In this document: positions 9,279 through 39,825 of the stretch, piece by piece
How the letters are laid out: each line of letters opens with the position of its first letter
Numbering within the stretch: the stretch's first letter is position 1
Assembly: GCA_023663945.1 (NCBI GenBank)
Contig: JAMPGL010000022.1
Span: forward strand, 1 to 57,882
Direction: 5' to 3'
DNA from: Lachnospiraceae bacterium
GTDB taxonomy: Bacteria; Bacillota; Clostridia; Lachnospirales; Lachnospiraceae
DNA: 57,882 nt
Translations under genes and position numbers: made by a program
Notes under the pieces: generated by a model
What the model was told of the DNA's origin: nothing
The model's input: the letters and a program-made list of their open reading frames with translations, nothing else
Databases searched by the model: none

Positions 9279-9309
9279 AAAGCACTTTCCAGTGCAGAAA
9301 GGGAAAAAT

Positions 9310-9570
9310 ATGACAAGGGAACGCATTGAAAAGGAGCTTTCCAAAGTGCAGGCGCAGCTTGAAAAATTACAGGCGAAGCAGAAGGACTTGGAAGAACAGA
9401 AACGCATGGCGGAGAGAGCCGAAAAAATAGATATTATCGAGAAGAACAAAATCTCGTCCGAGAAGCTGCAATTACTTATCAAGCTGAGCGAGGACGAGAT
9501 GTTACAGTTGTTGGCAGAAAAAGAAAAGAAAAAGGAGATGGCGGGAAATGAAGAAAAAGTTATCAGTTAA
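9310..9570 (+). CDS. DUF4315 family coiled-coil protein
   Basis: 86 residues starting at the ATG at 9310, with AAAGGGA upstream. Nearly the whole protein is a charged coiled coil (heptads through KVQAQLEKLQAKQKDLEEQK), which matches DUF4315 proteins encoded between the NlpC/P60 hydrolase and DUF4366 gene of Tn1549-type ICEs. Function unknown. The end overlaps the DUF4366 gene by 23 bp. Confidence 0.8.
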   Translation: MTRERIEKELSKVQAQLEKLQAKQKDLEEQKRMAERAEKIDIIEKNKISSEKLQLLIKLSEDEMLQLLAEKEKKKEMAGNEEKVIS

Positions 9571-11146: not shown

Positions 11147-13264
11147 ATGCAGTTAGTGATAGCAGAAAAACCAAGCGTTGCAAGAAGCATCGCAGAAGTA
11201 ATCGGCGCAGCGGAAAGCAGGGACGGATACATGGAGGGAAACGGTTATCTTGTGAGCTGGTGCGTGGGGCATCTTGTGGAACTCGCACAGCCGGAAAGCT
11301 ACGGGGAGCAGTGGAAGAAATGGACATATGAGAGCCTTCCCGTAAAGCCGGAGAAATGGCGGTATGAAGTCAAGGCGGACACCAAAGCGCAGTATGACGT
11401 GCTTTTCCAGTTAATGCACAGGGAAGACGTGTCGGCTGCGATCTGTGCAACAGACGCAGGGCGTGAGGGAGAACTTATCTTCCGCCTTGTGTATGAGATG
11501 GCAGGGTGTGACAAGCCGATCAGACGCCTATGGATTTCCTCAATGGAGGAAAGCGCAATCCGGGAAGGTTTTAAGAACCTGCGTCCGGGGAGCGATTACG
11601 ACAACCTCTACCATTCCGCACTGTGCAGACAGGAGGCGGACTGGCTTGTGGGCATCAACGGTACAAGGCTTTTTACGGTGCTGTATGGCGGTAAAGTCCT
11701 GAAAGTAGGCAGGGTGCAGACACCGACGCTTGCAATGCTGGTGGAGCGTGAGGAAAAAATCAGGAATTTCAAGAAAGAGCGGTATTACATGGCGCATATC
11801 CTGACGGATGGAATTGATGCCGCCACCGGGCGCATTGATGATAAAGACAAAGCAGATGGGATTGTAAGAGCCTGCAAGAATGGACAGGCTCTTGTCACAT
11901 CTGTCTTAAAGGAAGAAAAAACAGCCATGCCGCCGAAACTCTATGACCTTACCACACTCCAGCGTGATGCGAACCGTTTATTTGGTTTTACCGCAAAACA
12001 GACATTAGAATATATGCAGAGTTTATATGAGAAAAAGTTAGCCACTTATCCGAGGACGGACAGCCAGTTTTTATCCGATGACATGGGGCAGACCGCAGAA
12101 GGCGTGATCGAAGCGGTTTTCAGTTCCCTTATGTTTGAGGAAAGCATGATGTTTAATCCTGATATAAAAAGGGTGCTGGACAGCAGGAAAGTGACAGACC
12201 ACCATGCGGTTATCCCCACAATGGAGATTGCAAAGGCTGACCTTGCCGCACTTCCGGAAACGGAGCGCAAAATCCTGTCGTTAATTGCGAACCGCCTTTT
12301 GTGCGCCACCGGGGAGAAACACCTGTATGAAACGGTCAAAGCGGAGCTTTCCTGTAACGGACATACTTTTACCGTTTCCGGGAAGTCTGTCACGCATGAC
12401 GGGTGGAAAGCTTTTGAAGATGCTTTTAAGCGCTCTTTTAAGATTGCCGGGAATAAGGAAGAAGAAAACGGGGATAAGAAGCTGCCGGAATTATCGGAAG
12501 GGCAGACATTTGAAAATGTGCAGACAAAAGCCAGCGAGCATTTCACTTCCCCGCCGAAGCATTATACGGAAGATTTACTCCTGTCAGCAATGGAACGTGC
12601 CGGATCGGAGGATATGGGCGATGATGTAGAGCGAAAAGGATTGGGGACGCCTGCGACAAGGGCGGACATCATTGAGAAGTTAGTAAAGGACGGTTTCGTG
12701 AAACGTGAGAAAAAACAGATGATACCGACAGAGGACGGGTTAAAGCTGATAACGGTGCTTCCCGATGTGGTGAAATCCCCGAAACTTACCGCCGATTGGG
12801 AAAATGCCCTTACGCTGGTGGCAAAGGGCGGGCTTCCTATGGAGGACTTCATGGCAGACATTGAAAGCATGGTGTCAGAGCTTATCCATACTTACCATGA
12901 AGTCAGTGACGAACAGAAAAAGATGTTCGCACAGGAACAGGAAACGCTTGGGGCGTGTCCGAACTGCGGCGGTCAGGTGGCAAAGGGAAAATTCGGCGCA
13001 TACTGCACGAATAAATGCGGCATGAACGTGAGCCGGGTTATGGGCACTGCGCTTACCGATGCACAGGTAAAGGATATGCTTGCCGGGAAGAAAATCCTGT
13101 TAAAAGGGTTAAAAAATAAAGCGGGCAAGACATACGACGCCTATATTATTCCAAGTGGGACGGAAGAATACCATTACACCAAAGACGGGGAAGAAAAAAG
13201 CGGGGTACAGTTTAAGATTGTCATGGAATTTCCCAAGAAGAAATTTCCGGGGAAAAAGAAATAA
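11147..13264 (+). CDS. topB: DNA topoisomerase III
   Basis: 705 residues, type IA topoisomerase. It begins with the Toprim signature (LVIAEKPSVARSIA) with acidic D-x-G-R-E-G-E (TDAGREGEL). Active-site Tyr301 lies in TYPRTDSQF, and a C-terminal zinc-ribbon-like segment (CPNCGG...CTNKCG) follows. ICE-borne TopB acts on single-stranded or catenated DNA during transfer and element replication. It starts immediately after the DUF4366 stop and closes the transfer operon; the AT-rich cargo follows. Confidence 0.93.
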   Translation: MQLVIAEKPSVARSIAEVIGAAESRDGYMEGNGYLVSWCVGHLVELAQPESYGEQWKKWTYESLPVKPEKWRYEVKADTKAQYDVLFQLMHREDVSAAICATDAGREGELIFRLVYEMAGCDKPIRRLWISSMEESAIREGFKNLRPGSDYDNLYHSALCRQEADWLVGINGTRLFTVLYGGKVLKVGRVQTPTLAMLVEREEKIRNFKKERYYMAHILTDGIDAATGRIDDKDKADGIVRACKNGQALVTSVLKEEKTAMPPKLYDLTTLQRDANRLFGFTAKQTLEYMQSLYEKKLATYPRTDSQFLSDDMGQTAEGVIEAVFSSLMFEESMMFNPDIKRVLDSRKVTDHHAVIPTMEIAKADLAALPETERKILSLIANRLLCATGEKHLYETVKAELSCNGHTFTVSGKSVTHDGWKAFEDAFKRSFKIAGNKEEENGDKKLPELSEGQTFENVQTKASEHFTSPPKHYTEDLLLSAMERAGSEDMGDDVERKGLGTPATRADIIEKLVKDGFVKREKKQMIPTEDGLKLITVLPDVVKSPKLTADWENALTLVAKGGLPMEDFMADIESMVSELIHTYHEVSDEQKKMFAQEQETLGACPNCGGQVAKGKFGAYCTNKCGMNVSRVMGTALTDAQVKDMLAGKKILLKGLKNKAGKTYDAYIIPSGTEEYHYTKDGEEKSGVQFKIVMEFPKKKFPGKKK

Positions 13265-13353
13265 GTAGAAATATTGTTGTGATTGTGGTATCATATGAAC
13301 GGTATAAATTGAAATTTGTCATTTAAGCCCATACTGTTTGAGGAGGTAAAACT

Positions 13354-13659
13354 ATGTACAGAATAAATCATAATGATGCGATAGAATTAGAGCATCAAGT
13401 TCGTAGGTTATTTAAATGTGACCGAGCAGGAGTTTCTGGATTAGCTGATGCTGACAACTTTGAATCTCGTCCTATGGATGCAGCAGTTATGGTTGTATCT
13501 TACATTCATGCAAAAGGATTACAGAGTAGCGAAACACAATATGATGAGTTTTTATGTAAGTATGATGCTATTTTTACATATCCTGATGAAAATGATGCGG
13601 ATCATGAGGTACAAAATTATATTGATGAATTAACAAGGATTATTGAGGATTATTTGTAA
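13354..13659 (+). CDS. Small acidic protein of unknown function
   Basis: 101 residues with a clear SD (GAGGAGGTAAA, 13340-13350). AT-rich, unlike topB before it. Predicted mostly helical and acidic with no signal peptide or membrane segment. I do not recognise the family. It lies alone between topB and a terminator at 13751, so it is probably a separate small transcript at the left edge of the cargo block. Confidence 0.6.
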   Translation: MYRINHNDAIELEHQVRRLFKCDRAGVSGLADADNFESRPMDAAVMVVSYIHAKGLQSSETQYDEFLCKYDAIFTYPDENDADHEVQNYIDELTRIIEDYL

Positions 13660-13750
13660 TCATCAGTGTAAATTGTTTTAGTAACCTATACAGATTTCAA
13701 ATTATCGGTCAATGGCTACGGCAATCTCAATAGAATAGTTAAACAGCGTT

Positions 13751-13787
13751 AGAGCATATAGCGAATATCCTATATGCTCTTATTTTT
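13751..13787 (+). terminator. Rho-independent terminator
   Basis: A perfect 11-bp stem (13751-13761 with 13770-13780), loop of 8, then TATTTTT. It ends transcription of the small gene at 13354. Confidence 0.8.
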
Positions 13788-13856
13788 CATTAAAAATTAT
13801 GTTTACGATAGAGGATAAGGTATTAAGCGTTAGGAAAGAGGAAGAAAATCAGCATT

Positions 13857-14156
13857 ATGGAACCTTTCGGAATGTCAGAAGTAGCAGAAAGGATAATCAT
13901 GGTTATTCTGGCGGACATCAGAGAACCAAAGTTTGGTCTGATGTGCAGGATTGTAGTCAAGCTTGGCATCTGTGTCCATGAGCTTCGCACCGATGAGGAG
14001 CAATATGTCATATCTGTGCAGAAAGCTACCCTTGCAGGGATGCTTGTAATCAGTGAGATTAACAGTGTAAAACTGGAGAAACTGATACATATCATTCTGA
14101 AAAAAGGTATTGAGGAAAAAGAGCGGAATATTTTCTCTATTGATAGAGGTAAATAG
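13857..14156 (+). CDS. Possible hypothetical protein
   Basis: An open frame of 99 residues with a weak purine-rich upstream sequence (AGAGGAAG). Its second half (RTDEEQYVISVQKATLAG, then KLEKLIHIILKKG) looks protein-like, but I do not recognise it, and overlapping frames on both strands are also open. It may be a gene remnant. The promoter of the next operon starts 68 bp beyond it. Confidence 0.3.
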   Translation: MEPFGMSEVAERIIMVILADIREPKFGLMCRIVVKLGICVHELRTDEEQYVISVQKATLAGMLVISEINSVKLEKLIHIILKKGIEEKERNIFSIDRGK

Positions 14157-14223
14157 ATTTTTGGAAGTAATCATAGTATTTTAGGCATAATATTAAAAAA
14201 AATGTTGGATTTTACCGCATGGG

Positions 14224-14251
14224 TTGACAAAAGCCTAGAAAATGGTAAAAT
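14224..14251 (+). promoter_or_regulatory. Sigma-A-type promoter of the cargo operon
   Basis: TTGACA (14224-14229) and TAAAAT (14246-14251) are spaced by 16 bp. The predicted start of transcription near 14258 lies about 50 bp before the radical SAM gene and no other gene intervenes. Confidence 0.7.
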
Positions 14252-14309
14252 ATAAATTGGTGTATTTTGTAAAAAATGGATTCTCAAACAGTTTGTGAGG
14301 TTAGTAGTT

Positions 14310-15338
14310 ATGTTGGAATATTTGCCGTGGGCACAATCAACTTTAGAAAAAGCATTGGAGAAGTATGCTAGACGTATGTTTTCGATTTTAGATGTAGAAC
14401 TGGGAGGGGAGTGTAACTATCATTGTGTATATTGTGACTCTCCTGATAGAAAGAAAAAATGCAAAATTCCAATGGAGGCATTTGAAGATTTGATTAGTAC
14501 ACAAAAATTTGATTGGCTATTTATATGTGGTTTGGGTGAACCCACATATAATCATAATTATAATATTTTGTTAAAGATGCTTTCATTGTGTGAACAATAT
14601 GGCGTTAAATGTAGTATTTTTTCCAACTTGTCAAATCTTACACCAGAATTAATTCATTACGTTGAAGCGGAAGTACTATATATTTTCTTTAAATATGACA
14701 GTTCTCAAGCGAGTAAGGTAAAAATGTTATATGGAATTAAAAGTGCCCAGCAACAGATTGAAACAGTCAAAAGTATGAAAAAGTATGTTATCTGTAAAGA
14801 TAACAAAACAAATCTGGCTGCTTCAATAGTTCCAACACAGTTAAATTATAAAGATATTATGAATATTGTTGAAGAATGTGTAAATGCTAATATTTTTCCA
14901 CTTTTAGGAGAGTTAGAATTATCAGGAAAAGGAGAAACTAACTATGAAAATTTGTGTTTAAACCCTGAGGAATTGAAGAAAATTAAGGACAATACAGAAG
15001 AACTTTTAGGACATGAATATCAAATACCGGTATGTCCGTCTGTAATTAGTGGTATACATTTCAGTTCGGATAGTTATATCACAGTGGATGCTTTTTCAGG
15101 CTTGTCTTGTCATTGGTTTTGGCTTGAAGAGCCTAAAATTAATCGATTACTACAATTTAATGCAGATGTTTCTTTGACTGAAATGACAGACTTGATTTTA
15201 AATTACAGAACTGAGCAATTAAAGGATGTGGAAGCGTATATGAGAGAAAAAAGAGATGTTGGGGGAGCGTTTGGCGGTTGTGGGGGAAAAATAGGAACTA
15301 TTTTTAAACAGTATTTAACGTGTCATAAGAGGATATGA
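14310..15338 (+). CDS. Radical SAM protein of the cargo operon
   Basis: 342 residues. ATG 14310 is chosen over GTG 14295 because GTGAGG lies 9 bp before it. C35-x3-C39-x2-C42 (CNYHCVYC) is the radical SAM [4Fe-4S] motif; GLGEPT is the usual SAM-binding glycine-containing segment. The C-terminal part has extra cysteines (CPSVISG; LSCHWFW; GGCGGK; LTCHKR) with DAFSG, resembling a Twitch/SPASM auxiliary-cluster region. The substrate is unknown. The desulfurase gene follows after 2 bp or overlaps, depending on its start, so the two are coupled. AT-rich throughout. Could act on a peptide, tRNA or small molecule; nothing in the sequence decides this. Confidence 0.88.
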   Translation: MLEYLPWAQSTLEKALEKYARRMFSILDVELGGECNYHCVYCDSPDRKKKCKIPMEAFEDLISTQKFDWLFICGLGEPTYNHNYNILLKMLSLCEQYGVKCSIFSNLSNLTPELIHYVEAEVLYIFFKYDSSQASKVKMLYGIKSAQQQIETVKSMKKYVICKDNKTNLAASIVPTQLNYKDIMNIVEECVNANIFPLLGELELSGKGETNYENLCLNPEELKKIKDNTEELLGHEYQIPVCPSVISGIHFSSDSYITVDAFSGLSCHWFWLEEPKINRLLQFNADVSLTEMTDLILNYRTEQLKDVEAYMREKRDVGGAFGGCGGKIGTIFKQYLTCHKRI

Positions 15339-15340
15339 AT

Positions 15341-16483
15341 ATGATTTATTTAGATAATAATGCAACCACAATGGTTGATTCGAAGGTATATGTAAAACAA
15401 TGCGAAGTTTTAAGAAAAAATTTTGGTAATGCAAGTAGTGTTTACCCAATAGGAGTGGAAGCCAAACAAATTATTAAAGACGCTAGACAGAAAGTTGCAA
15501 ATTTTATAAATGCGGATATTAAGGCTGGAGATAGAGTTATTTTTACGAGTTGTGCTACCGAAAGCAATAATGCAGTTTTTCATTCAGTATTAGATCAAAA
15601 AGCTATTGGAAAACATATTATTATTTCCGCAATAGAACATCCGGCGGTAATAAAACCAGCGGCATATTATGAAAAAGCGGGATGCGTTGTAGAACGTATT
15701 CGGGTGGATGGTAATGGCTTTTTAGAAGAGAAACAGATTATAAGTTCTATCAATGAGAATACAGTGTTAGTTTCTATTATGATGGTAAATAGTGAAACAG
15801 GTGTAATAAATAATATTAAAAATATAGTTAAAATTATTAGGGAGAAGAATCCTAAGATATTAATTCATACAGATGCAGTGCAAGCTGCAGGTAAGATAAA
15901 AATAGACGCACAATGTTTAGGGGTTGATTTTTTATCTTTGTCTGGACATAAATTTTATGCACCCAAAGGAATTGGTGCTTTGTATATAAGGCGTGGGTGC
16001 TCATTTAACCCATTTTTTCTTGGCGGTCATCAAGAAGATGATTATAGAGCGGGAACTGAAAATGTAGCATCTATTGCAGCAATTGGTGAAGCGGCTTATT
16101 TAGCTCAACAAGATTTAGAAAATGGAGTCATTGCAAAAGTTGAAAATTTGCGAGATGAGATGGAAGAAAGACTCAAACGAGAGTTTCCTGATTCTATAAT
16201 CTTTGGTTCGAATAATGTAAGGGTTGGTAACACAACCAATATAGGTTTTAAGGCAGTTGATGGTTCTAAATTGGTGTTACAACTAGCTCAAAAAGGAATA
16301 TGCATATCCAGTGGTACGGCATGTAATTCTTTAACTGCGGCGCCATCAAGGGTGTTGAGTGCAATGAATGTGCCAGAAGATTATATACGGTCAATACGAA
16401 TAAGCCTTTCCAAAGAAAATACAGAAACAGATATTCAAGCATTAATTAATTCACTCAAATATGCCATAAAAAGGAGGAAATAA
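15341..16483 (+). CDS. Cysteine desulfurase (NifS/IscS-like)
   Basis: 380 residues from ATG 15341 (AAGAGG 8 bp upstream; an ATG at 15335 is also possible). A fold-type I PLP enzyme: His100 (IEHPAV), Asp178 and Gln181 (HTDAVQ), PLP Lys204 (SGHKFYAPKG) and catalytic Cys328 (SSGTACNS) are all present. The reaction is removal of sulfur from cysteine to form an enzyme persulfide. In this operon it could supply sulfur for the Fe-S clusters of the neighbouring radical SAM and ferredoxin proteins or be a direct sulfur donor for a thiolation reaction; the sequence does not separate these. It is an extra, accessory copy rather than part of an isc or suf locus. Confidence 0.93.
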   Translation: MIYLDNNATTMVDSKVYVKQCEVLRKNFGNASSVYPIGVEAKQIIKDARQKVANFINADIKAGDRVIFTSCATESNNAVFHSVLDQKAIGKHIIISAIEHPAVIKPAAYYEKAGCVVERIRVDGNGFLEEKQIISSINENTVLVSIMMVNSETGVINNIKNIVKIIREKNPKILIHTDAVQAAGKIKIDAQCLGVDFLSLSGHKFYAPKGIGALYIRRGCSFNPFFLGGHQEDDYRAGTENVASIAAIGEAAYLAQQDLENGVIAKVENLRDEMEERLKREFPDSIIFGSNNVRVGNTTNIGFKAVDGSKLVLQLAQKGICISSGTACNSLTAAPSRVLSAMNVPEDYIRSIRISLSKENTETDIQALINSLKYAIKRRK

Positions 16484-16484
16484 T

Positions 16485-17108
16485 ATGTCCATTAAATTTA
16501 ATTTTAACATGTGTGATAATAGCCCTGAGTGTAGCGGCTTAGCGGCATGTCCTACGGGTGCTATTTATTGGGATGAAGACGGTATAAACGCTCTTGGTAC
16601 AAAAGGAACATTGTGTGTGGATGATAGTAAGTGTATTTTATGTGGGGCATGTGTTGGAGAAGATGGGTGTCCTATAGGTGCAATTCTTTTTTCTAAAACA
16701 GAAACAGATTTTGGGAAAGAAAGCGAAATCAATAATGAGCAAGTTAATGCTTTGTTTGTTGAACGCTATGGTGCTGAGGTGATTGATGAAGCACTATGCA
16801 TATCTGATTTAGAAGTTTTGCAGAGTGAAAATAACAGGGTTATAGTTATTGAAGAATTTTCGGATTCCTCAATTCAATGCTTGCTTCATTCTATTCCAGT
16901 GACTTCAATTTTAGGAAAGATTCAACAGTTAATGGGTGGTATATCAGATATTGCTTATTATAAGTATTATAATGAATCTGGTGAGGGCGGAGAAGATTTT
17001 CCCAAATTATCTATTTATAAAGACGGTAATTTGCTTATTCAGATAAGAGGGTATTTTGATGATAGTCAGGAGGAAATATTATACGAGGAGATTGCAAGGC
17101 AAGTTTAG
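16485..17108 (+). CDS. Ferredoxin-like protein with thioredoxin-like C-terminal domain
   Basis: 207 residues; SD AAAGGAGGAAA directly upstream. The N-terminus has cysteines C10, C16, C22-P and C50-x2-C53-x2-C56 then C62-P, enough for two [4Fe-4S] clusters with an unusual first motif (x5 spacing). After a linker, residues about 115-207 have beta-alpha-beta sequence ending in FPKLSIYKDGNLLIQIRGYF, which looks like the end of a thioredoxin fold without a CxxC pair (inference). It probably gives electrons to the radical SAM enzyme. It starts 2 bp after the desulfurase stop. Confidence 0.78.
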   Translation: MSIKFNFNMCDNSPECSGLAACPTGAIYWDEDGINALGTKGTLCVDDSKCILCGACVGEDGCPIGAILFSKTETDFGKESEINNEQVNALFVERYGAEVIDEALCISDLEVLQSENNRVIVIEEFSDSSIQCLLHSIPVTSILGKIQQLMGGISDIAYYKYYNESGEGGEDFPKLSIYKDGNLLIQIRGYFDDSQEEILYEEIARQV

Positions 17109-17138
17109 TTATATATCAGAAAAATTGAGGTTGTGAGA

Positions 17139-19841
17139 ATGATGTTAGGTACTTTTGAAGAGATAAAAACACTTGAATGCTTAAGAAGGGTATTGACAAT
17201 AGAAGACGAGACAGGGTATCAAGATTCTATATCCACAGACAAACTGGAGTGTTATCTTGAAACATTATGCAATATACCTAATGCTTCTCAGATTGTTACT
17301 GGTTGGATTAATGAGCTTATAGATGAGTATAATAATAGATATTTGGAATTAAAAGAAAAAAGTTTGTATAATTTATGTCTCTATAAAGCATTTGACTATT
17401 TTCTTCCTTTTTTAGCTACATATGAAAAATTGGAAACACTCATTAATATGTGTTCCTTAGTGGACGATGAAGATGAAGATAATAAGGATTCCCATTTGAA
17501 ATTTTTTGAGGAGAGTGTACGAAATGCAACAAATTATGCAAAGAGGATTCACATTCTCGATTTAGTAAAAAACGGGAGAGTGGATAATGGTAATGAAATT
17601 CTTTATTTATTAGGTTTTTTAAATTTTAGAATTCAGCAATATGATATGGCAATAACTTACCTAAAGCCTTGTACGGAAACTTACTTAGAGAAAATTAGCA
17701 ATGATGAATCTATTAGTTTATATATTAATAGTTTAATTTACCTTGTTGAAAGTTACGAATATAGAAGTGATTTAGATAATGCTTTGAAACAATTACTTGG
17801 AGTTGATGGCGAACACTTAAAAAAACTTCTTAATGATATTTCTTCTAGAATTGATATTTCGCGATTTATTTTAGAAAATTATTCGAATATTGACAAAGGT
17901 GAAGAAAGCCTTCAATATATAAAAGAAATTTATAAATGTTTGTGTGATTCCCAAAAGGATTTACCAGCATCTTATAAAGTGTTTCAATTAAAAGGAATAA
18001 GTAAAAGTTTGAAATCTTTTGTACATATAACTGCACATTGTTTAAGTGAATATGCAGCGTTATGTATGGATGAAGTTGCAAAAAAACAAGGTGAATTTAC
18101 CAAAGAAATTAGAATTTATTCTTTGCTACAGCAGGTATCTCGCTTTTTAATGGATTGGCTAGTTGGTCAAGATGATTCATATGTAACTTGTCAGGCAACA
18201 ATAAGGGCAGAGAATGATGCATGCCCAGAAGCTATAAATATTCTTATAAAACGGTTGAAAGAACTTGAAAAAACAACAGACCAAAATCTTTCTATGAAAG
18301 AAAAGGTGGAGAAGGCAGAATTGCAGTTTTACATCTTTTATTTTGCTGAGCAAGAATTAAACATAAATAATAATAAAAATAATTTGTTGGATATTTGTGC
18401 AAAATATGGAACGGAATTTTATAGATTTGTAAAAGAATCTGGGGATACCAATGCATTGTTTCATTATTTAGTTATACAATTTAAATATTTATTAAAAAAA
18501 GCGGCACAGGATATATTACAACTTAATAATTCTTCCGATTATACTGAGTTGGATAAAATATATCATCAAATATGTATATGTCGTAAAAGCCCATTACCAC
18601 ATGTATTTCGTGAATTAATCGAAGAAAGTGAACGCCTTGAAAATGCCTATCTACTGCTAAGAGAATATCGTTATCTTTTTAAGAAGGATACTGATTTTTG
18701 TAATATGAAAGAGTTTTATAATAGGTTAGATTTAAAAAGAAAAATTATTCCAGTTAATAATATAGATGATGAAAAGGGAATATCAGACAGTGAAGATGAT
18801 GAAGATGCTGACGTTGAAGGCATAAATATTATAAAGGAATTAATTGATGAGATAGAAGCCAAGAAAAGGATATTAATATTAGCTCCGGTAAAAACTGCAC
18901 CATCATGTTCACTTGATTATCGTCCTATTAATCAATTAACGAGACTTGTTGATTGTAAAAATGAGTCAAATGATTTTGAAACCATTCATTCAGATTTTCA
19001 ACAAGTAGCTGCAGAACATAGTAAAAAGAAGGGAATAGACAAAATTCTACAATGCGACAATATTGAATGTGTAAAATGGATGATTTATTATGATAGTTCA
19101 ATAAGCGCTTTATTCATTTACTATAATGATCTGATAGATGAAATGAAAGGAGAAATGCTTAGAGCAAATTTGAATGAAAATGAAAAGAATCATCTTAATA
19201 AATTGTTTAGAAAATTGAAAAACAATTTCTTTCATAGCCATGCATTTCAGGTTGATTGCAACCAAAATGAGCATAAAAAAATCTATGAAAGTGGAGGTGT
19301 TTGTACCACATGGGTAATAAGGGGGAGTGATGTCACTTGTAATGATAAGTTGCTTGAAATTCTCATTTTTTCTGAGTTTGATTTTTGCTCACTTTCTGAT
19401 AGCGTAAAGGTTAATAAAGATGATTATATAATGTTTTCATCGGATGTTCATTCTGTAGCTAAATATAAAATAGTTTGTTTTGAAGAGCTACCTAAAACAA
19501 AGAAAATAGGGATTTGTAATTATTGTAGATGCGTTGACGTAAAAGGAGAGGAAGTAAATAAAGAAAATTCTTGCGAGATAAAATATCCACAAGAAACACA
19601 TAAGTGTATTTTTAATGGAAAGTCAGTTGATTTGCAAGGTTTAGAAATTAATATTACTAAAAGAATTAATAAGTTGCAGCTAGAAGAATATGGAGAAGTT
19701 ATTGAACTTTTAGAGGAAGTACATAGAGAAATCCGTAAATGCCGAGATTATTCTTGTCAAAGAAAGGATAGTGAGTATCAATGTGAATGGATTAAGAAAT
19801 GTAGGGACAATGGTGTAGATATCCCTATAAAGGAGGGATAA
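17139..19841 (+). CDS. Large helical Cys-rich protein of unknown function
   Basis: 900 residues; ATG 17139 has GAGG 8 bp upstream (GTG 17133 is an alternative). Residues 1-550 are helical with TPR-like stretches (for example YLLGFLNFRIQQYDMAITYL). Residues about 545-570 are an acidic linker. The C-terminal part is rich in cysteine, including CNYCRC followed by C and HKC, and a final cluster CRDYSC...C...KKC, which may bind metal. I do not recognise the family and see no P-loop. It is the largest protein of the operon and may be the scaffold, sensor or target-binding part. Confidence 0.75.
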   Translation: MMLGTFEEIKTLECLRRVLTIEDETGYQDSISTDKLECYLETLCNIPNASQIVTGWINELIDEYNNRYLELKEKSLYNLCLYKAFDYFLPFLATYEKLETLINMCSLVDDEDEDNKDSHLKFFEESVRNATNYAKRIHILDLVKNGRVDNGNEILYLLGFLNFRIQQYDMAITYLKPCTETYLEKISNDESISLYINSLIYLVESYEYRSDLDNALKQLLGVDGEHLKKLLNDISSRIDISRFILENYSNIDKGEESLQYIKEIYKCLCDSQKDLPASYKVFQLKGISKSLKSFVHITAHCLSEYAALCMDEVAKKQGEFTKEIRIYSLLQQVSRFLMDWLVGQDDSYVTCQATIRAENDACPEAINILIKRLKELEKTTDQNLSMKEKVEKAELQFYIFYFAEQELNINNNKNNLLDICAKYGTEFYRFVKESGDTNALFHYLVIQFKYLLKKAAQDILQLNNSSDYTELDKIYHQICICRKSPLPHVFRELIEESERLENAYLLLREYRYLFKKDTDFCNMKEFYNRLDLKRKIIPVNNIDDEKGISDSEDDEDADVEGINIIKELIDEIEAKKRILILAPVKTAPSCSLDYRPINQLTRLVDCKNESNDFETIHSDFQQVAAEHSKKKGIDKILQCDNIECVKWMIYYDSSISALFIYYNDLIDEMKGEMLRANLNENEKNHLNKLFRKLKNNFFHSHAFQVDCNQNEHKKIYESGGVCTTWVIRGSDVTCNDKLLEILIFSEFDFCSLSDSVKVNKDDYIMFSSDVHSVAKYKIVCFEELPKTKKIGICNYCRCVDVKGEEVNKENSCEIKYPQETHKCIFNGKSVDLQGLEINITKRINKLQLEEYGEVIELLEEVHREIRKCRDYSCQRKDSEYQCEWIKKCRDNGVDIPIKEG

Positions 19842-19844
19842 ATT

Positions 19845-20441
19845 GTGTGTAAGCAGAAGCTTTTTTTTGAAAAATGTCCAAAACGGCTATGCAATGAACT
19901 TAATGCTGAAATATTTAAGAGAATGAAAGAATTTTATGAGTCTTCGTATAAATCGTCTTTAATAAATAAAATAATATTTGATATGGTATGTTCTGTGGAT
20001 AGGACATTGCTTACTTTGATAGTGGGTAGTTTGACAAGTTTATCGATTAATTTAGCTACCGGTTTTATTGATTTGGAAAAAGTTAATTATAATGTAGAAT
20101 TTATTTTCCGTATTTTTCAATTTGTTTTTGCTGTAGGTTTTAATTTTTATACAATTTGTTTTACAACAAGAGTTATTAACATTCAAGAATGTGGTGAAAA
20201 GTATTACCCGGATCAAAAGATTTCAAAGGATTTAATAATTGAATCTCAAAAGAATGTTATGTTTAATGCTTGCATAGAGAATGAGAAGGATCTGAAAAAA
20301 TTTCTTTTGTTGGGTGGGGTTTGTATTATAGTTGTTATTTTAAGTGTACCTTTTAAATCCATTTGCATAGAAGGAATAAATCAAATTATATTATTATTGG
20401 GAGAATTGTGGAAAAATATTAAATCAGTTATAGGGGTGTGA
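19845..20441 (+). CDS. Small multi-pass membrane protein of unknown function
   Basis: 198 residues from a GTG start with GGAGGG upstream, 3 bp after the large gene. Three hydrophobic segments (about 50-72, 85-107 and 150-172) with soluble N-terminal and central parts. Not recognised. In bacterial conflict systems, small membrane proteins next to large repeat proteins are often effectors; that parallel is only inference here. Confidence 0.65.
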   Translation: MCKQKLFFEKCPKRLCNELNAEIFKRMKEFYESSYKSSLINKIIFDMVCSVDRTLLTLIVGSLTSLSINLATGFIDLEKVNYNVEFIFRIFQFVFAVGFNFYTICFTTRVINIQECGEKYYPDQKISKDLIIESQKNVMFNACIENEKDLKKFLLLGGVCIIVVILSVPFKSICIEGINQIILLLGELWKNIKSVIGV

Positions 20442-20446
20442 TTATT

Positions 20447-21082
20447 ATGAAAAAAAAAGATATTTATAGTATTAGCGAGTTGGTTCTTCAAGCATATGAT
20501 AGGATTGCTGAAAAGTATGTTGCGGCTTATGAAGAAAATGATTTGGTAGATTGTAAATATCTTAATGACTTTGTTGATTATTTGTCAGGCAATAAAGTTC
20601 TTGATATGGGTTGTGGGTGTGGAGAAAGTATTTCATATCTTTCTCAATTTGAACTGGACTTAATTGGAATAGATTTTTCAGAAAAGATGTTGGCTGAAGC
20701 ATGTAAACTTTATCCTTCATTAAAGTTTGAAAAACAAAATATTTTGAAAACTTCTTTTGCAGATAAGTCATTTGATGGTGTTGTTTTAACATATGTAATC
20801 AATCATTTTAATGATGAAGGATTAAAACTTCTAAAGCAAGAGATTGATCGGATACTTAAAGATAATGGAACTGTATTTTTATCTGTACATGTTGGAAATA
20901 ATGAGGAATATGTTTCTGATCCATTAGATGAAACTATAGAGATTTATTATAACTTTTTAAATATTGATAAGCTAGATAGACTTTTTAAAGATTATAAACG
21001 ACTAAAATATGATTTTCGAGAATCATTTGGAGAAGAAGAGTTTCTTTGTGATAAAATGTTTGTTATTTATAGAAAGGACTAA
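20447..21082 (+). CDS. Class I SAM-dependent methyltransferase of the cargo operon
   Basis: 211 residues from ATG 20447, 5 bp after the membrane-protein stop. Rossmann motif I at about 51-59 (VLDMGCGCG), acidic loop GIDFSEKM, and a motif IV-like DGVVLTYVINHF, typical of small-molecule methyltransferases (Methyltransf_11/25 type). No DNA target-recognition region. The substrate is unknown; possible targets include the product of the radical SAM enzyme or a polyamine from the next gene. Confidence 0.85.
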   Translation: MKKKDIYSISELVLQAYDRIAEKYVAAYEENDLVDCKYLNDFVDYLSGNKVLDMGCGCGESISYLSQFELDLIGIDFSEKMLAEACKLYPSLKFEKQNILKTSFADKSFDGVVLTYVINHFNDEGLKLLKQEIDRILKDNGTVFLSVHVGNNEEYVSDPLDETIEIYYNFLNIDKLDRLFKDYKRLKYDFRESFGEEEFLCDKMFVIYRKD

Positions 21083-21086
21083 TTAT

Positions 21087-21554
21087 ATGATTTTTCTTCC
21101 TAAAAAATATATTATGAGAACAGGTGTTGGATATGCTTCTCACAAATTAGGTGCATTTGATTGTGCGCTTATTGAGGCAGGTGTTCATGATTATAATTTG
21201 ATTAAAGTGAGTAGCATTTTGCCGCCGGACTGTGAAAAGCAAAATACTATATCCTTGGTTAAAGGGGCTCTTTTACCTTCTGCATTTACAAGTATATACT
21301 CAAACACATTGGGGGAGTGCATTTCGGCTGCTATTGCTATTGGTATACCTGCTAATAAGTCTGATGTAGGAGTGATAATGGAGCATTCTTCTTATAATTC
21401 GAAGGAAGAGACAGAGGAACAGGTAAGAAATTTTGCTGAAATTGCAATGAATACTCGTAATATTTTGGTCGAAAAAATAGTTTCATGTTCTATACAAATA
21501 AAGGTTGAAACAGAAGATTTTTATTGTGCTTTTGCAACAGTAAGCATGTGGTAG
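21087..21554 (+). CDS. Pyruvoyl-dependent arginine decarboxylase
   Basis: 155 residues from ATG 21087, 4 bp after the methyltransferase. The sequence follows the PvlArgDC family along its length: self-cleavage site S42-S43 in KVSSILPP, the LVKGALLPSAFTSI segment, GECISAAIAIGIP and the C-terminal CAFATVSMW. Self-cleavage at Ser-Ser gives a pyruvoyl group; the reaction is arginine to agmatine plus CO2. The length is usual. It is the last gene of the cargo operon. A related aspartate or histidine substrate cannot be fully excluded, but the SSILPP context fits arginine. Confidence 0.88.
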   Translation: MIFLPKKYIMRTGVGYASHKLGAFDCALIEAGVHDYNLIKVSSILPPDCEKQNTISLVKGALLPSAFTSIYSNTLGECISAAIAIGIPANKSDVGVIMEHSSYNSKEETEEQVRNFAEIAMNTRNILVEKIVSCSIQIKVETEDFYCAFATVSMW

Positions 21555-21570
21555 TTTTTTTGGGGGGGGG
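21555..21570 (+). repeat. T7-G9 homopolymer junction
   Basis: Seven T followed directly by nine G begins right after the stop of the arginine decarboxylase gene. Such a G run is exceptional in this AT-rich block and marks the right side of the cargo. Confidence 0.8.
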
Positions 21571-21644
21571 TATAGAAATATAATCTTATATTTTAGTGAG
21601 GTTAGTTATAAATTTGAAGATATGAGGAAAGGAGCAGACAAAAA

Positions 21645-21695
21645 TTGAATAAAGTATACCGTCACTGGTGGCAATGGATTATGAACGAACCATAG
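21645..21695 (+). CDS. Putative leader peptide (Trp-rich)
   Basis: A 16-codon frame from TTG 21645, with AAAGGAG 10 bp upstream, encoding NKVYRHWWQWIMNEP after the start. Its stop codon lies inside the 3' arm of the terminator-like hairpin at 21667-21706. This is the layout of a transcription attenuator. It is too short to judge by composition alone. Confidence 0.4.
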   Translation: MNKVYRHWWQWIMNEP

Positions 21696-21706
21696 CCGCC
21701 TTTTTT
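21667..21706 (+). terminator. Terminator-like hairpin overlapping a leader frame
   Basis: 11-nt arms (21667-21677 with 21690-21700; one wobble, one mismatch) followed by TTTTTT. It lies 42 bp before the start of the giant gene and overlaps the leader peptide, so it may attenuate the giant-protein operon. Confidence 0.6.
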
Positions 21707-21747
21707 ATTGCCTAAAATTGCAAAAAACTAAGAAACGGAGGTTCACC

Positions 21748-23835
21748 ATGAGAAAATATGACATAATTTCCGCACTTTCCGAGGAAACAGCAAGGAGGGT
21801 GGCGAGGAATGACGAGAGCTGGAAAAAGTACCTGAATACAGCATCAGGACTTTACAAATACCCGTTCAAAGACCAGCTTCTCATCTATGCCCAAAGACCG
21901 GATGCGACAGCCTGCGCTTCCATAGAGATATGGAATGAAAAAATGCACTGCTGGGTAAACAAAGGGGCAAAGGGCATTGCACTGATTGACGAAGAAGGGA
22001 GTCCTTACACCGGGCTGCGGTACGTCTTTGACATATCGGACGTGCATAAGGCAAGGCGTATCGGGCGTTTCCCGCAGCTATGGGAAATGAAAGAGGAACA
22101 TCAGGAAGCGGTGATTGACCGTTTGGAGCAGATTTACGGGGATACCAATAAAGAAGCCGGATTCGTGGACAGGATCAGGGAGATTGCGTCACGCATAGCG
22201 GAGGACTGTTATAAAGAGCTTGCTTCAGACATGGAATATCTGAAAGCGGGAAGTTTCTTGGAGGAGCTTGACGAGCTGAATATCGGTGTGCGTATCCGGG
22301 AAACGCTGGCAGACAGTATCGCCTACACTGTTCTGAAACGGTGCGGCATGGACGAAAAGGAACTGTCTGCGGAAATCGAGTTCCCATATATCCATGAATT
22401 TAATACGGTGGAAACACTCTCACACATCGGAAACAGCGTATCCGATTTATCCAAGCCTGTCCTTATGGAAATCGGGAAGGCAATCGGGGCGTATGACAGG
22501 GAGAATATAAGAAATGCAGAAACTAAAAATTTAGGCGGGAAAGGACTTGCAAATGCCTCTGACACACGCTATAATGCTTTAAAGCGTGAAAGCGAAACGA
22601 AGGACGTACAATCTATCGGACAGACCGGAAAAGCCGGGGAAAGGGAAAATAATGATGAATCTGAAATACGAAAAGAACGGGGATTACATGATCCCGATGT
22701 TACAGATGGACGGGCAGCCGGAGGGGACGCTGACCAAGTATGGGCTGATGAGGAAGAATTACTTACAGGAACACAAGAAAGGCATTTACACAGGACTTCT
22801 CCTGAAAGGGAAGCTGAAAGAGCATCTTCTGACCATTCAGGAACAGGCGGAGCAGAGAATGGAGCTGCTGACCGGGCAGATGATGAAGCAGGAGGGAGTG
22901 ACGGAGAAGCTCAAGGCAGAGAACCAGATGCTGTGGGTGCAGAAGATGAACAGCATCAGGCAGTCGGCGGAGGAGATCGTGCTGGCGGAGCTGGTATACA
23001 GCCTGTAAATGAAGAAAAAACAACTGAAAATGCGGAATTGCAGAAGCCGGATAATGGGGAAAACACATTATCCGGTTTTTCTTTGCCCGATATTGAAAAG
23101 GGTGTTTTGCAGTTTGATGAATTTATGGTGCATAAATGCCCGGACATTGCCGGAGTCATGCTTTTTGAGCCGGATAAGGACAAGCAGACAGAGTACATCA
23201 AAAACAGTTACAGGCATGGGGAATATGCGGAGTTTTATGTAGGCAGGGAACGTGTCGGGTATAAGGCGGATGAAAACGGTTTTTCGTTCTGGCGGGGAAG
23301 CCGTTCAGAACGGATAGGGGAAGTTATCATATCATGGGAAGATGTCAGAAACAGCATTGCCTACTATATGGAAAGAAACGAATACCTGAAAGACGGGCAG
23401 ATACCGCAGTGGCAGGAGCCGGAGGGGACGTACCAGCAGTTAAGCCTTTTCCCAAGCGTTGAGGAACAGATCGGCACAATCGAAGCGGCACAGGCAGGAG
23501 AGAAATACACCATGCCCGCCGCTTTTTCCCTGCCACAAAAACAGCTTGAAGCAATCCTGCGGACAGGCGGCGGACGCAATAACAGCAGAAGCCGCATTTA
23601 CGCCAAGTACCAGCAGGGCAGGACGCCGGAGGAAATGGCGGAGTTTCTGAAAAACGAATACCAGACCACCGGGAAAGGCTTTGACTTCGGGGACAATCCC
23701 GTTTCCGTATGGTTTAATGAAAAAGGCATGAGCATCGGCTATGGTATGTCCGCAAAGGAAAATCCGATTGCGGTGATGGGCTGCGGGAAGTGGAGGGCAT
23801 TGTCCGTTCTATGGTGGAGAATGGCTCTTACATGA
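21748..23835 (+). CDS. Giant polyvalent protein, N-terminal fragment (ArdC-like domain), frameshifted
   Basis: 695 residues from ATG 21748 (GGAGG 6 bp upstream). Residues 1-90 resemble the ArdC N-terminal single-strand-DNA-binding domain ([15 protein letters not shown]...WVNKGAKGI). A Gly/Asp/Glu/Arg-rich linker (about 300-430) contains tnpV in another frame. The last 20 residues ([14 protein letters not shown]) are out of frame: the next frame continues as [17 protein letters not shown]. One G is probably missing from the GGG run at 23785-23787 (GGGG would restore the frame). The intact protein, joined with the next entry, would be about 3050 residues, normal for the helicase/methylase protein of these ICEs. 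Confidence 0.8.
22652..23008 (+). CDS. tnpV: TnpV-like protein nested in another frame of the giant gene
   Basis: 118 residues from ATG 22652, preceded by GGGGAAAGGGA. The sequence ([15 protein letters not shown]...[15 protein letters not shown]...[38 protein letters not shown] in parts) matches the TnpV family of transposon-encoded proteins over the whole length. It lies entirely inside the coding frame of the 695-residue fragment, where the same DNA encodes the low-complexity linker. Function of TnpV is unknown. A complete, well-formed protein in this frame makes chance unlikely. Confidence 0.75.
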   Translation: MMNLKYEKNGDYMIPMLQMDGQPEGTLTKYGLMRKNYLQEHKKGIYTGLLLKGKLKEHLLTIQEQAEQRMELLTGQMMKQEGVTEKLKAENQMLWVQKMNSIRQSAEEIVLAELVYSL

Positions 23836-26800
23836 GTGCAAGCGAAGTGTTCCTTGTAGATGCGATAGAACGACAGAGGGTGTCAAATGACCTTTTCAAT
23901 TTCTTTAGGGACGGTATCGGGGAAATACCGGAGGGCATACCGATAAAAAATTACAACTATCCGGAAAGCATCACGAACCTCTGTGATCTTTTATCCACAC
24001 AGGAGGGGCGTGATATTGTCACCGGGGAGCTTGCCAGAGCAAAGGAACAGCTTGACGCAGGGGAAAAGCGGTTAAGGTGGCGGTATGTGAAGCGTCCGGA
24101 ACGCCTGCTTGCGGAGATTGCCGATTTAAGTGCGGAAAAAAGGGAATACCCGGCACAGGATAATGTGGAGGTTCTGCATGAGGATTTTATCACGCAGGAC
24201 GAGATAGATACCCGTCTGACGGGCGGAAGCAATTTTCATCATGGGCAGTTCCGCATTTATGAGTATTTCATGGAAGGGCATGACAAGAAAGAAAATATTG
24301 CCTTCCTTAAAAATGAATATGGCACAGGCGGAAGTTCCCACGCACTTACGGGGAGCGATACCGGGCATGAGGATCATGACGCAAAAGGCATCCGTCTGGA
24401 AAAAGGCAGCTATGGCAGCCCTTACGCAAAAGTGCTTTTAAAATGGAACGTGGTGGAAAAGCGCATCAGGGAGCTTGTAAAAGCGGATAAGTACCTTACG
24501 CCGGAGGGCAAGGAAGCCTATGCACAGTATAAAAAAGAGCAGGCGGAGGAAGCCATGCGCCGGGAACAGGAAAAGCTGGAGCATGGCATACGGATTGAGT
24601 GCAAGGACGCAATCGAAAAGGCGGTTGCAGAGAAATTTGACGGCAACACGCTTCCGAGGGATACCGCAGAGGGCATCATAAAGCAGTTTGGAAAGGAACG
24701 TGTCGGGATTGTCCTTGCCAATACAATCACGCACTTATCTTATGACGGGCGGTTTTCCCCCAATAACAAGGAATGGGCGAAAACGCTTGTACCCGATGCA
24801 GACTGGCAGACAAAGGATTATATCGTCACTTCCCACCCGGCTGTCCTTGACGGGTTTACCAATCAGGCAAGGCGCTATATAGAGCGTGACAGGGAAATGG
24901 ACAGGGCGGAGATGCCAAAAACGGAAGAAGAAACTTCTGGACAAAATGTCCAAAAGTCCGAGCCGGGAAATGAAATAAGCGGGAGTGACAGGGCGCTTAT
25001 GGAAAGGCTTGCGGAAATGTCCGCTGTGGTGAAAATCTGCGGTGCGCTTTCCATGAAAGATGTGGTCGGCTGGAATGAGGACACCGGGGAGGTTGCCATT
25101 CAGAACGATGACAGGCGGTTAGAGGGAAAAGCAGTCTATGACACGCTGTTCATGGAAGCCGCCGATTATGTCCTCATGCAGTCATTAAGCGGCGATACGG
25201 AAAAAGCGGTACAGATGGACTTGCTGCTCAAGGAAGCACAGAAATATGCGGCACGATATGACGAGCCGGAACAGCAGGGGGAAGAAAAGGCTGCTGATGA
25301 AATTTTCCAAGCGGAAACGGAAGAAGAAAAGCAGACGGAAACAGAGCCGGAAGCTGTACCGGAAGAACCGGGACAGGAAACAACAGCACGTTTTACGGTT
25401 ACGGAAACAACGGATGCCTTTGCAGAGCCTTTTGCGGTATGGGACAACGAAAAGCAGGATTATTATGTGACGGGCGATGGCACATTGCCTACGTTTGAAA
25501 CGGTTGAGGAAGCAAATGCGTATGCTGACCGCATCAACGGTATTCCGGAAGAAAAGGAAGCTGTAACAGGGCAGCCGCCAAAAGAGGAACAGGCAGAAAC
25601 GGAAAATACCAAGCCGACATTGGAAACTGATACGGAAACGGAGGATATTCCAAAAGAGGACAATATTGCCGGCACAGAAGATGATTTTTCCAATATTGAC
25701 ACAGATGCAGTCCGGGAAAGGCTTGCAAAAGCCGGGATTGTGGACGGGCAGCTTGTAGATGAAAATGCCTTAGAGAATGATCCGTTTATCCGGCAGGTCA
25801 TGCGTGACGTGGAAATGCTGACAGGGGAAACGGAGATAGAGCCGGAAAAAGAACCAGAAAAAGAAACGGAAAACGCATCAGGGAAAGAACCGGGGATTGA
25901 CAGGTCGGACGCAGTTAATTACCGCATTTCTTTTAATGAAGCGGAAAGCGCCGGAAAAGGCTTTGCGCCGAAAGAGAAATTCCGCCAGAACATTAACGCC
26001 ATTCGCACCCTTGAAAGGATTGAGGGCGAAAACCGCATTGCCACACCGGAAGAACAGGAGGTTTTAGCAAAATATGTGGGTTGGGGCGGTCTTGCCGACG
26101 CTTTTGACGGAACAAAGGCAAATTGGGCGAATGAATATCAGGAATTAAAGAGCCTGTTATCCCCGGAAGAATACGCTTCCGCAAGGGAAAGCACCTTAAA
26201 TGCCCACTATACAAGCCCTGTCATTATTCAGGCGATTTATGACACAGTGGGGAAAATGGGTTTCACCAAAGGGAATGTGTTAGATCCCGCCGCCGGGATC
26301 GGAAATTTCTATGGCTGTCTGCCGGAGGAAATGCAGGAAAGCAGGCTGTACGGGGCGGAACTTGACGGACTTACCGGGCGGATTGCAAAGCAGCTCTATC
26401 CCCATGCGGACATTAAAATCACAGGCTTTGAGAACACCAGCTACCCGAACGATTTTTTTGACGTTGCGGTGGGAAACGTGCCATTCGGTCAGTATAAAGT
26501 GGCTGATAAAGCCTATGACAAGCACAACTTCCTTATCCATGACTATTTTTTCGCAAAGACTTTGGATAAGGTCAGACCGGGCGGCGTGGTTGCCTTTGTC
26601 ACTTCAAAGGGGACGATGGACAAGAAAAACCCGGAAGTAAGAAAATACCTTGCGCAGCGGGCGGAGCTTTTAGGGGCGGTCAGGCTTCCAAACACAGCCT
26701 TTAAGGAAAATGCGGGTACGGAGGTCACTTCGGATATTTTGTTTTTAAAGAAGCGTGACAGGGTAATGGATATTGAACCGGACTGGGTGCATCTGACGGA

Positions 26801-39051: not shown

Positions 39052-39825
39052 ATGGCGGAATATACTCTATACATAGATGAGAGCGAAACTTTTAACAGTG
39101 CAGGAAATAAATATTTTGTTATGAGTGGTGTTATTATCAGTGACAGTGACTATCCGGAAATTGAGGATAATTTAAACCAGATTAAGAGAAAAATATGGGA
39201 CAATGCACAGGGTTGTGAGAAAAACATATTACACGAGAAAGATGTCAGTTTTGCAAATTTTCGGTTAAATTCAAAGAGATTGTCAGATATTCCGGCTTGT
39301 TACCATATATTCCGGGATAAGAACAAAGTGCTGCTTTTATATAATGAGCTTTCAAAGCTGTTTAAGAAAGCGCCTCTTTATACGATTGGAGTCTGTCAGG
39401 ATAAAAGCGTCCTATTTGCCCGATACGGGGAAGAAAACCTCAATAACCAGCTTACCATAGCAATCCAGTTATTGATTGAGCATTACTGCCAGTTCCTGAT
39501 CATGAATAAAGCAACAGGGGCTATCTGCTATGAAGCGATGCAGCCGGAGCAGAACGCAAAAATACAGCAGAGAATATATGAATTAAAGGCATTGGGGACT
39601 ATGTATTATTCTTCGGGAACGATACAGAATTATCTGCGTGACATACATTTTGTATCAAAATCAGAAAATATGGCGGGACTTCAACTGGCAGATTTTGTTC
39701 CAAACACATTAGGACGCTACGCCGCAATGATGAAGCCTAAGAACAGGGATTTTTCAAAAAGCGTCAGGGATAAGCTGTATGATGGAAATGGAGATAAACG
39801 GTTTGGGTTTAAGATTTTGGCGTAA
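39052..39825 (+). CDS. DUF3800 domain protein
   Basis: 257 residues, ATG with AAGGTGAG upstream. It has the N-terminal YIDESE with acidic residues and the C-terminal LQLADFVPNTLGRY typical of DUF3800, a family with an RNase H-like pattern of acidic residues; activity unproved. DUF3800 genes are often found on mobile elements and near structured RNAs. Here two candidate RNAs follow directly (39876 and 40071). Confidence 0.85.
   Translation: MAEYTLYIDESETFNSAGNKYFVMSGVIISDSDYPEIEDNLNQIKRKIWDNAQGCEKNILHEKDVSFANFRLNSKRLSDIPACYHIFRDKNKVLLLYNELSKLFKKAPLYTIGVCQDKSVLFARYGEENLNNQLTIAIQLLIEHYCQFLIMNKATGAICYEAMQPEQNAKIQQRIYELKALGTMYYSSGTIQNYLRDIHFVSKSENMAGLQLADFVPNTLGRYAAMMKPKNRDFSKSVRDKLYDGNGDKRFGFKILA

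Follow-up and report, generated by a model that had tools for sequence, protein, structure and literature searches.

Thoeris, CBASS and Pycsar are laid out as a signal-maker plus an effector, and the prokaryotic viperins (pVip) are radical S-adenosylmethionine (SAM) enzymes (rSAM). DndA is the sulfur donor according to a reappraisal of the Dnd system (PMC10853773), and a study of vWA-MoxR conflict systems (PMC7159879, eLife 2020) says that their rSAM effector modifies a separately encoded peptide in FtsH ternary systems. The subject here is a seven-gene operon in which genes for an rSAM enzyme, a NifS-type cysteine desulfurase and a ferredoxin are joined by one for a pyruvoyl-dependent arginine decarboxylase (PvlArgDC) and by three others. 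It lies on contig JAMPGL010000022.1 of a Lachnospiraceae bacterium (assembly GCA_023663945.1); "the window" below means the whole 57,882-nt stretch that was analysed. We propose, with moderate confidence, that this cassette may be a mobile, modular conflict system, probably an anti-phage one, because effector-like parts are exchanged around a shared enzyme and mobile genes stand beside five of the eight loci that could be read.

The seven-gene operon

14224–14251, + strand: putative promoter-like site, TTGACA-16-TAAAAT with TG before the second hexamer (11 of 12 consensus matches)
14310–15338, + strand: rSAM enzyme, 342 aa, from family scans and an eight-sequence alignment (residues numbered from the 14310 start)
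15335–16483, + strand: NifS-type cysteine desulfurase (NifS), 382 aa (380 from the ATG at 15341)
16485–17108, + strand: two-cluster ferredoxin (Fd) fused to a thioredoxin-like half with an invariant cysteine, C132
17133–19841, + strand: 902-aa sensor/effector-like protein (H902), residues 144–478 homologous to two TIR-ending proteins
19845–20441, + strand: 198-aa membrane protein (MEM198), with two stretches above the hydropathy threshold, one barely
20438–21082, + strand: class I SAM-dependent methyltransferase (MT), 214 aa from a GTG (211 aa from the ATG at 20447)
21087–21554, + strand: pyruvoyl-dependent arginine decarboxylase (ADC), 155 aa, self-cleavage pair Ser42-Ser43 kept

All seven genes are on the + strand (14310 to 21554), and family scans bear out the families that an initial annotation, made from the sequence alone, had named. 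The close spacing described there also stands, although the gaps are tighter than the 2–30 bp it gave, from -4 to 24 bp as measured. The promoter it placed at 14224–14251 is the top scorer of 54 promoter-like matches in 13265–21760, but that number is scarcely above what shuffling gives in so AT-rich a stretch (mean 45.8, sd 6.7). The GC content of the operon is 0.311, against 0.494 for the neighbouring topoisomerase gene (topB) and 0.496 for the helicase gene; as had been described, it is AT-rich cargo between element genes of about 50% GC. Right behind the stop codon of the last gene come seven T and then nine G (21555–21570), perhaps a length-variable tract.

Related loci

Relatives of the rSAM protein, 27–52% identical, were found on one viral contig and on eight genome contigs, from Clostridia, Bacteroidia and Tenericutes. 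The genome relatives come from a single scan, by two short peptide patterns, of 84,980 species genomes, which gave 102 stretches, eight of them confirmed; the count is therefore a minimum. The eight readable loci are the window and seven of the nine records, and two pieces, L011 and L012, were excluded from the counts and from the rSAM alignment. In L011 the rSAM gene is cut at the contig end (query residues 225–347 only). L012, from a Mediterraneibacter metagenome-assembled genome (MAG), has only about the first 60 rSAM residues (556–879), followed by genes that look polysaccharide-like by eye, and is probably a decayed copy. The gene orders are as follows (H, 902-aa family; MEM, membrane protein; PRTase, phosphoribosyltransferase; FMN, flavin mononucleotide):

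Window: rSAM-NifS-Fd-H902-MEM198-MT-ADC
L005 (Oscillospiraceae MAG): rSAM-NifS-Fd-MT-ADC-MEM253
L006 (Clostridia MAG): PRTase-like-rSAM-NifS-Fd-H1186-ADC
L007 (Bacteroidia): MEM137-(rSAM/NifS, one gene)-Fd-H1027-MT-SLFN_AlbA_2
L008 (Clostridia MAG): MEM241-FMN reductase-SPASM-type rSAM-rSAM-ADC
L009 (Tenericutes MAG) and L004 (viral contig): small gene-MEM-rSAM
L010 (Lachnospiraceae MAG): MT/rSAM fusion-2-hydroxyacid dehydrogenase-MEM378-rSAM-TrmFO-type

The rSAM, NifS and ferredoxin/thioredoxin genes stand in one order in four of the eight loci (window, L005, L006 and L007, thus in Clostridia and Bacteroidia), and the decarboxylase gene is also found in four (window, L005, L006 and L008). The identity tables for rSAM, NifS and ferredoxin each pair the window with L005 and L006 with L007, as expected of a unit that travels jointly. 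In L007 (10004–12154) rSAM and NifS form a single 716-aa protein, within a Bacteroidia element with a tyrosine integrase and a Mob_Pre relaxase; the fusion is a sign that both work together. Mobile-element genes adjoin five of the eight loci (window, L004, L007, L009 and L010). The initial annotation had treated the seven genes as one system and asked whether the set recurs in unrelated elements or only in this strain. The core does occur beyond this strain, in two phyla, but the exact seven-gene set was seen only in the window; the genes for the 902-aa and 198-aa proteins and the methyltransferase vary from locus to locus.

Two of the loci depart further. L010 holds a different cassette (6138–12278) around a distant rSAM relative, near genes for a type IV secretion system coupling protein, YqaJ and YodL; its TrmFO-type gene overlaps the rSAM gene and scores 308.5 bits with NF003739 (cut-off 262) and 245.9 with TIGR00137 (below the cut-off of 428.65). 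L008 (565–4398) has an FMN reductase gene and a second, SPASM-type rSAM gene, with no NifS or ferredoxin gene in the contig and with the genes for a two-transmembrane (two-TM) protein and the decarboxylase kept.

The cassette is rare and patchy, since an eight-sequence rSAM profile (E 1e-25) run against samples of 398, 345 and 245 genomes matched only in the centre genome. Among 299 host-family genomes the 902-aa protein matched only itself, as did the rSAM protein in a sample of the same kind; viral contigs, plasmids and phages gave no relative of the former, and plasmids and phages no lead for the latter. There was no lead for the ferredoxin protein in viral contigs and plasmids or for the decarboxylase in viral contigs, where the rSAM alignments and the two-TM alignment found L004 only. 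The L010 rSAM protein matched eight plasmid records, over at most 68% of the query and to distant rSAM proteins where annotated, and gave no lead in phages. The L007 fusion matched 435 plasmid records, the ten best chiefly through its NifS half.

Core enzymes

The rSAM protein belongs to the radical SAM superfamily (Pfam Radical_SAM 33.1 bits, cut-off 29.5). Its CxxxCxxC motif (C35, C39 and C42) is present in all eight aligned sequences, with one extra residue in L010, where the alignment has a gap ahead of the motif's second Cys pair. A GLGEP motif is also invariant in all eight, as are C190, C242, C267 and C324, cysteines which suggest that the enzyme likely carries an auxiliary Fe-S cluster. 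The family start, MxEYxPW, makes 14310 the more likely start codon; the C-terminal motif is FGGCGG. Relatives of the rSAM profile in the PDB are all distant and include viperins, cytosylglucuronate decarboxylase, BtrN and, at the top, 5v1q (E 1.4e-6, entry labelled "Radical SAM"), which we take to be the peptide maturase SuiB.

The desulfurase (Aminotran_5 270.6 bits, cut-off 21.5) is of NifS/IscS type, with SGHK and G-T/S-ACNS (the pyridoxal phosphate lysine and the catalytic Cys loop) kept in all four copies; against the NifS equivalog it scores 411.5 bits, below the cut-off of 530.75. The host genome has one other cysteine desulfurase at E 1e-20, 38% identical to the window's. The ferredoxin is of the two-cluster type (Fer4_7 28.6 bits, cut-off 27). 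Its second half matches Pfam Thioredoxin in the L005 homologue only (27.1 bits, cut-off 23.5); searched alone, the window's second half had no family match and that of L007 gave DUF6568 below cut-off, and a four-sequence ferredoxin profile finds the thioredoxin 5jy5 in columns 109–194 (E 3e-5 for the whole match). The sole invariant Cys of this half could carry sulfur or electrons. The presence of both genes in the same operon agrees with the initial idea of an rSAM enzyme with its own sulfur source and electron donor.

The methyltransferase is assigned by Methyltransf_25 (65.4 bits, cut-off 27), and the decarboxylase to its family by Pfam (128.9 bits, cut-off 22.7) and TIGR00286 (124.1, cut-off 106.95), the L008 copy falling under the latter cut-off at 91.1 bits. 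The decarboxylase gene of the window more likely begins at 21087, giving 155 aa. Ser42-Ser43 is kept in all four copies of the decarboxylase. In processed 1mt1 the beta chain ends at profile column 41, which corresponds to Ser42 of the window protein, so self-processing is likely here too; the product would be agmatine. There is no second PvlArgDC in the host genome (94% complete), and among 14 control genomes only three archaea matched.

Effector-like partners

The 902-aa protein has no Pfam family above cut-off, and the 198-aa protein no match at all. Residues 144–478 of the former are homologous to the L006 and L007 proteins (hhalign 97.7%, E 2.1e-12; blastp to residue 543), and these two homologues end in about 170–210 residues opening FISY or FISF. 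By profile this C-terminal part is a TIR domain: hhalign gives 93.7% (E 1.9e-7) and aligns the conserved Glu, against 0.2% and 0.1% for a pair of control profiles. The TIR profile was made from 11 of 15 TIR_2 matches from genomes near the host, omitting L054 and L066 (both with an internal stop) as well as L058 and L061. The TIR part itself gave no lead in plasmids and no match in 199 genomes, a sample without a positive control. The forms with and without TIR occupy the same place in the operon, directly after the ferredoxin gene (window, L006 and L007), and the TIR-less form is then followed by a membrane gene. The neighbours of 902-aa homologues had been named as a check in the initial annotation; both homologues found lie beside rSAM, NifS and ferredoxin genes, but direct searches would miss relatives that distant, and because both were reached through the rSAM gene, the family may also occur alone.

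Two other ideas about the 902-aa protein were rejected. That it ends in a TIR domain in the window as well is ruled out by profile comparison (0.1%). That it is a TPR protein, from stretches read by eye, finds no Pfam TPR in the family, and in a rough motif count no position in any of the three family members reached 7 of the 8 consensus sites.

L004, L005, L008 and L009 encode homologous two-TM proteins, distinct from the 902-aa family, with C156, C162, C240 and C242 (L005 numbering) kept in all four. The two-TM protein of L010 is unrelated to these, and the window's 198-aa protein has no similarity to them (hhalign 0.1% each against the two-TM profile). A TIR protein or a membrane protein is present in all eight loci, in keeping with the suggestion that the 902-aa and membrane proteins may sense or execute. 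In L004 (3559–4074) and L009 (6016–6483) the two-TM gene is preceded by one for a protein of 155–171 aa, 60% identical between them; it matched no Pfam family over cut-off, and a DUF4178-like identity was unsupported.

The conjugative element and its cargo slot

The window encodes a CD1115-family VirD4 protein, a CD1108-family mobile-element protein, a topoisomerase, a giant protein with SNF2 motifs, a relaxase and a Tn916-type integrase, and its identity as a conjugative element, presumably a Tn1549-like one, is well supported. The cassette lies between two of these genes:

11147–13264, + strand: topoisomerase of the element (topB), left edge of the cargo slot
21718–30917, + strand: giant protein of the element, forming the slot's right edge; two long open reading frames (ORFs), SNF2-type helicase motifs in the second

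topB DNA was matched in 32 of 180 host-family genomes, the host's own among them, and the slot was compared in regions from 10 of the 31 others. The distance from topB to the helicase is about 100 bp in L050, 1.5 kb in L045 and 2.5 kb in L044, whereas L047, L052 and L053 have about 7–8 kb. Other genes occupy the slot in these elements, in the last three mainly one for a protein of about 2,100–2,200 aa. Two regions (L046 and L049) stop short of the helicase, L048 has no helicase match, and L051 has a weak one about 1.5 kb on. Since distances and gene content differ between elements, the slot is variable and the cassette one of several fillings, which upholds its initial description as cargo of an integrative and conjugative element.

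Elsewhere in the window, a MobA/VirD2-type relaxase gene on the minus strand (40255–41628), opposite to most window genes, may be the sign of a nested element, or else belong to the right-hand part of the conjugative element itself. A DUF3800 protein is encoded at 39052–39825, and a second, unrelated radical SAM gene at 42354–43379, for which the profiles of a C-methyltransferase of ribosomally synthesized and post-translationally modified peptides (RiPPs) and of HemZ rank first, all below cut-off. SLFN_AlbA_2 proteins are encoded far downstream of the cassette (54568–56106) and, in L007, directly after the methyltransferase gene (16521–17846).

Possible roles of the cassette

The overall pattern, in which an enzyme core on mobile DNA is patchily distributed and its effector-like partners are exchanged, is that of a conflict system. 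The gene set, its conservation, the exchange of partners, the TIR profile match and the mobile setting are all observed, and trigger, product, activation, killing and defence are inferred. In such a system the core would be built around the rSAM enzyme. Four of the eight loci add a dedicated sulfur donor (NifS) and an electron/sulfur carrier (ferredoxin-thioredoxin), four add the arginine decarboxylase, which would supply agmatine, and some add the methyltransferase. A trigger would set the core to make a small molecule, perhaps sulfur- or agmatine-bearing, and this product would switch on the exchangeable effector, which might be a TIR protein destroying nicotinamide adenine dinucleotide (NAD), a two-TM protein damaging the membrane or, in the window, the 902-aa protein together with the 198-aa membrane protein. 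The decarboxylase and the sulfur donor would point to an amine- or sulfur-bearing product, but they may only tailor what the rSAM enzyme makes, since neither was seen in L004, L009 and L010. A pyrimidine derivative as the product is no more than a guess, prompted by the TrmFO-type gene of L010 and the phosphoribosyltransferase-like gene of L006. A modified molecule, agmatine as a building block and phage defence, all raised as possibilities in the initial annotation, may be parts of such a system. More tentatively, it could be a new class of signal-type immunity, in which an rSAM "synthase" with its own supplies of sulfur and agmatine would form some small molecule, exchangeable effectors would respond to it, and mobile elements would have carried the whole between phyla.

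Several points weigh against a conflict system. The window's own effector is unassigned, the C-terminal ~350 aa of the 902-aa protein not being TIR by profile, and the TIR part of the L006 and L007 proteins went unnamed when its sequence was searched against Pfam and the PDB. There is no NifS or ferredoxin gene in the sequence at hand from L004, L008, L009 and L010, and no decarboxylase gene in that from L004, L007, L009 and L010; genes may be missing here, because the sequence stops 376 bp (L004) and 531 bp (L009) past the rSAM gene and the L008 contig measures 4.8 kb. As to mobile genes, none was recognised at L005, their presence at L006 is unclear, and the L008 contig cannot be judged in this respect. 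No other defence system was shown beside the loci. PADLOC was strong only for the desulfurase, with weaker scores for rSAM against pVip (39.8 bits) and the methyltransferase against mad2 (56.9 bits), and on the partner proteins it gave matches at chance level only.

The strongest alternative to the small-molecule reading, though an unlikely one, is that the rSAM enzyme is a protein maturase that modifies a partner, which might be the 902-aa protein or, in the two-TM proteins, the part with the four cysteines; NifS and ferredoxin-thioredoxin would give sulfur and electrons, and the partner would be armed or silenced. The cassette would then remain a conflict system, but one with no diffusible signal. 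The rank of 5v1q (presumably SuiB) as closest PDB relative is consistent with this, as are the four cysteines kept throughout the two-TM proteins and the situation in L004 and L009, where the two-TM protein and the 155–171 aa protein have no other company close to the rSAM gene. However, the TIR and membrane partners show no common part to modify: the TIR and two-TM profiles compare at 0.2%, and the 198-aa and L010 proteins are equally foreign to the two-TM profile (above). A maturase would also leave the arginine decarboxylase of four of the eight loci without a role.

A natural-product cassette (antibiotic, RiPP or the like), its product secreted and the membrane protein exporting it or conferring immunity, seems quite improbable. 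An rSAM enzyme, a methyltransferase and a decarboxylase are a common biosynthetic mix, and there are transporter matches below cut-off in L008 (DctQ 24.2, cut-off 28.3) and L005 (MFS_1 17.3, cut-off 33.4), but no transporter, nonribosomal peptide synthetase, polyketide synthase or carrier protein was over cut-off among the 27 proteins scanned, and TIR domains are as a rule neither export nor immunity proteins. A comparison of 650 small ORFs (E 0.01), which a lineage-specific precursor might escape, gave 64 matches between loci; 56 lie inside conserved genes in both loci and seven in one, and the single pair outside them in both is a 9-residue match, hardly a convincing shared precursor-peptide gene.

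Less probable again is nucleic-acid modification, with agmatine and/or sulfur put on tRNA or DNA and the 902-aa or TIR protein acting on unmarked or foreign nucleic acid. It would draw on the match of the desulfurase to SspA/DndA in PADLOC (398.9 bits, but only 291.9 against the NCBIfam DndA cut-off of 480), on the overlapping TrmFO-type gene of L010 and on the upstream gene of L006, which is weakly uracil-phosphoribosyltransferase-like (21.1 bits, cut-off 27). The last two, however, occur in one locus each, and the seven window proteins include neither a PP-loop DndC nor DndB-E nor a nuclease. Least probable is that the cassette is ordinary cargo serving metabolism or Fe-S repair, in which the 902-aa and membrane genes ride along without any relation to the enzymes: every enzyme family is commonplace on its own and the host has its other desulfurase, but the 902-aa relatives lie directly behind ferredoxin even in the Bacteroidia element of L007, and the L005 membrane gene is homologous to the rSAM-adjacent ones of L004, L008 and L009.

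If the conflict-system reading is true and a signal comes from the core, the known routes by which infection may lead to cell suicide in bacteria would gain radical chemistry other than that of viperin, together with an amine derived from arginine, and there would be a new natural molecule to find; protein maturation, if true instead, would be a new way of arming TIR and membrane effectors. Small as it is, the set recurs across several lineages and its active sites are clear, which makes it directly testable.

Comparison with known systems

The architecture of the cassette fits no described system among those tested or found, and none of the family libraries searched has an entry for the set. 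A literature search, with most subscription papers beyond its reach, found no set of rSAM, cysteine desulfurase and pyruvoyl-dependent arginine decarboxylase, and no anti-phage set of rSAM, desulfurase, ferredoxin and TIR domain. Prokaryotic viperins are rSAM enzymes too and resemble the first enzyme by profile (PADLOC pVip, as above; PDB viperins, E 9.8e-6 to 8e-5), but the window protein is no viperin at 35.9 bits against the NCBIfam cut-off of 180. It differs also in its four further invariant cysteines and in having desulfurase, ferredoxin and decarboxylase partners plus exchangeable effector-like genes.

Thoeris, CBASS and Pycsar would be similar in working only, as an enzyme part with exchangeable TIR or membrane partners, if the cassette does signal. 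Its core is a different one (rSAM, NifS, ferredoxin and PvlArgDC), and no CD-NTase, cyclase, ThsA or ThsB was found among the seven window proteins or the ten partner proteins and parts scanned (neighbours partly scanned), so that it counts neither as CBASS (CD-NTase) nor as Thoeris (ThsA/ThsB). Dnd/Ssp phosphorothioation has a desulfurase, DndA/SspA, near to the NifS-type one here, but the seven proteins include no DndC/SspD, DndB, DndD, DndE or restriction protein, which sets the cassette outside that group. With the vWA-MoxR systems (PMC7159879) it shares an rSAM gene in a conflict-type operon, and it differs in that no such separate peptide or FtsH ternary-system part was named here. The closest likeness of the decarboxylase is to archaeal PvlArgDC (1n2m and 1mt1), with a whole-length match to 1n2m (E 7.8e-40) and the self-cleavage Ser-Ser in register; the difference is that here the gene belongs to a cassette and neighbours rSAM, and that its bacterial host has no further copy.

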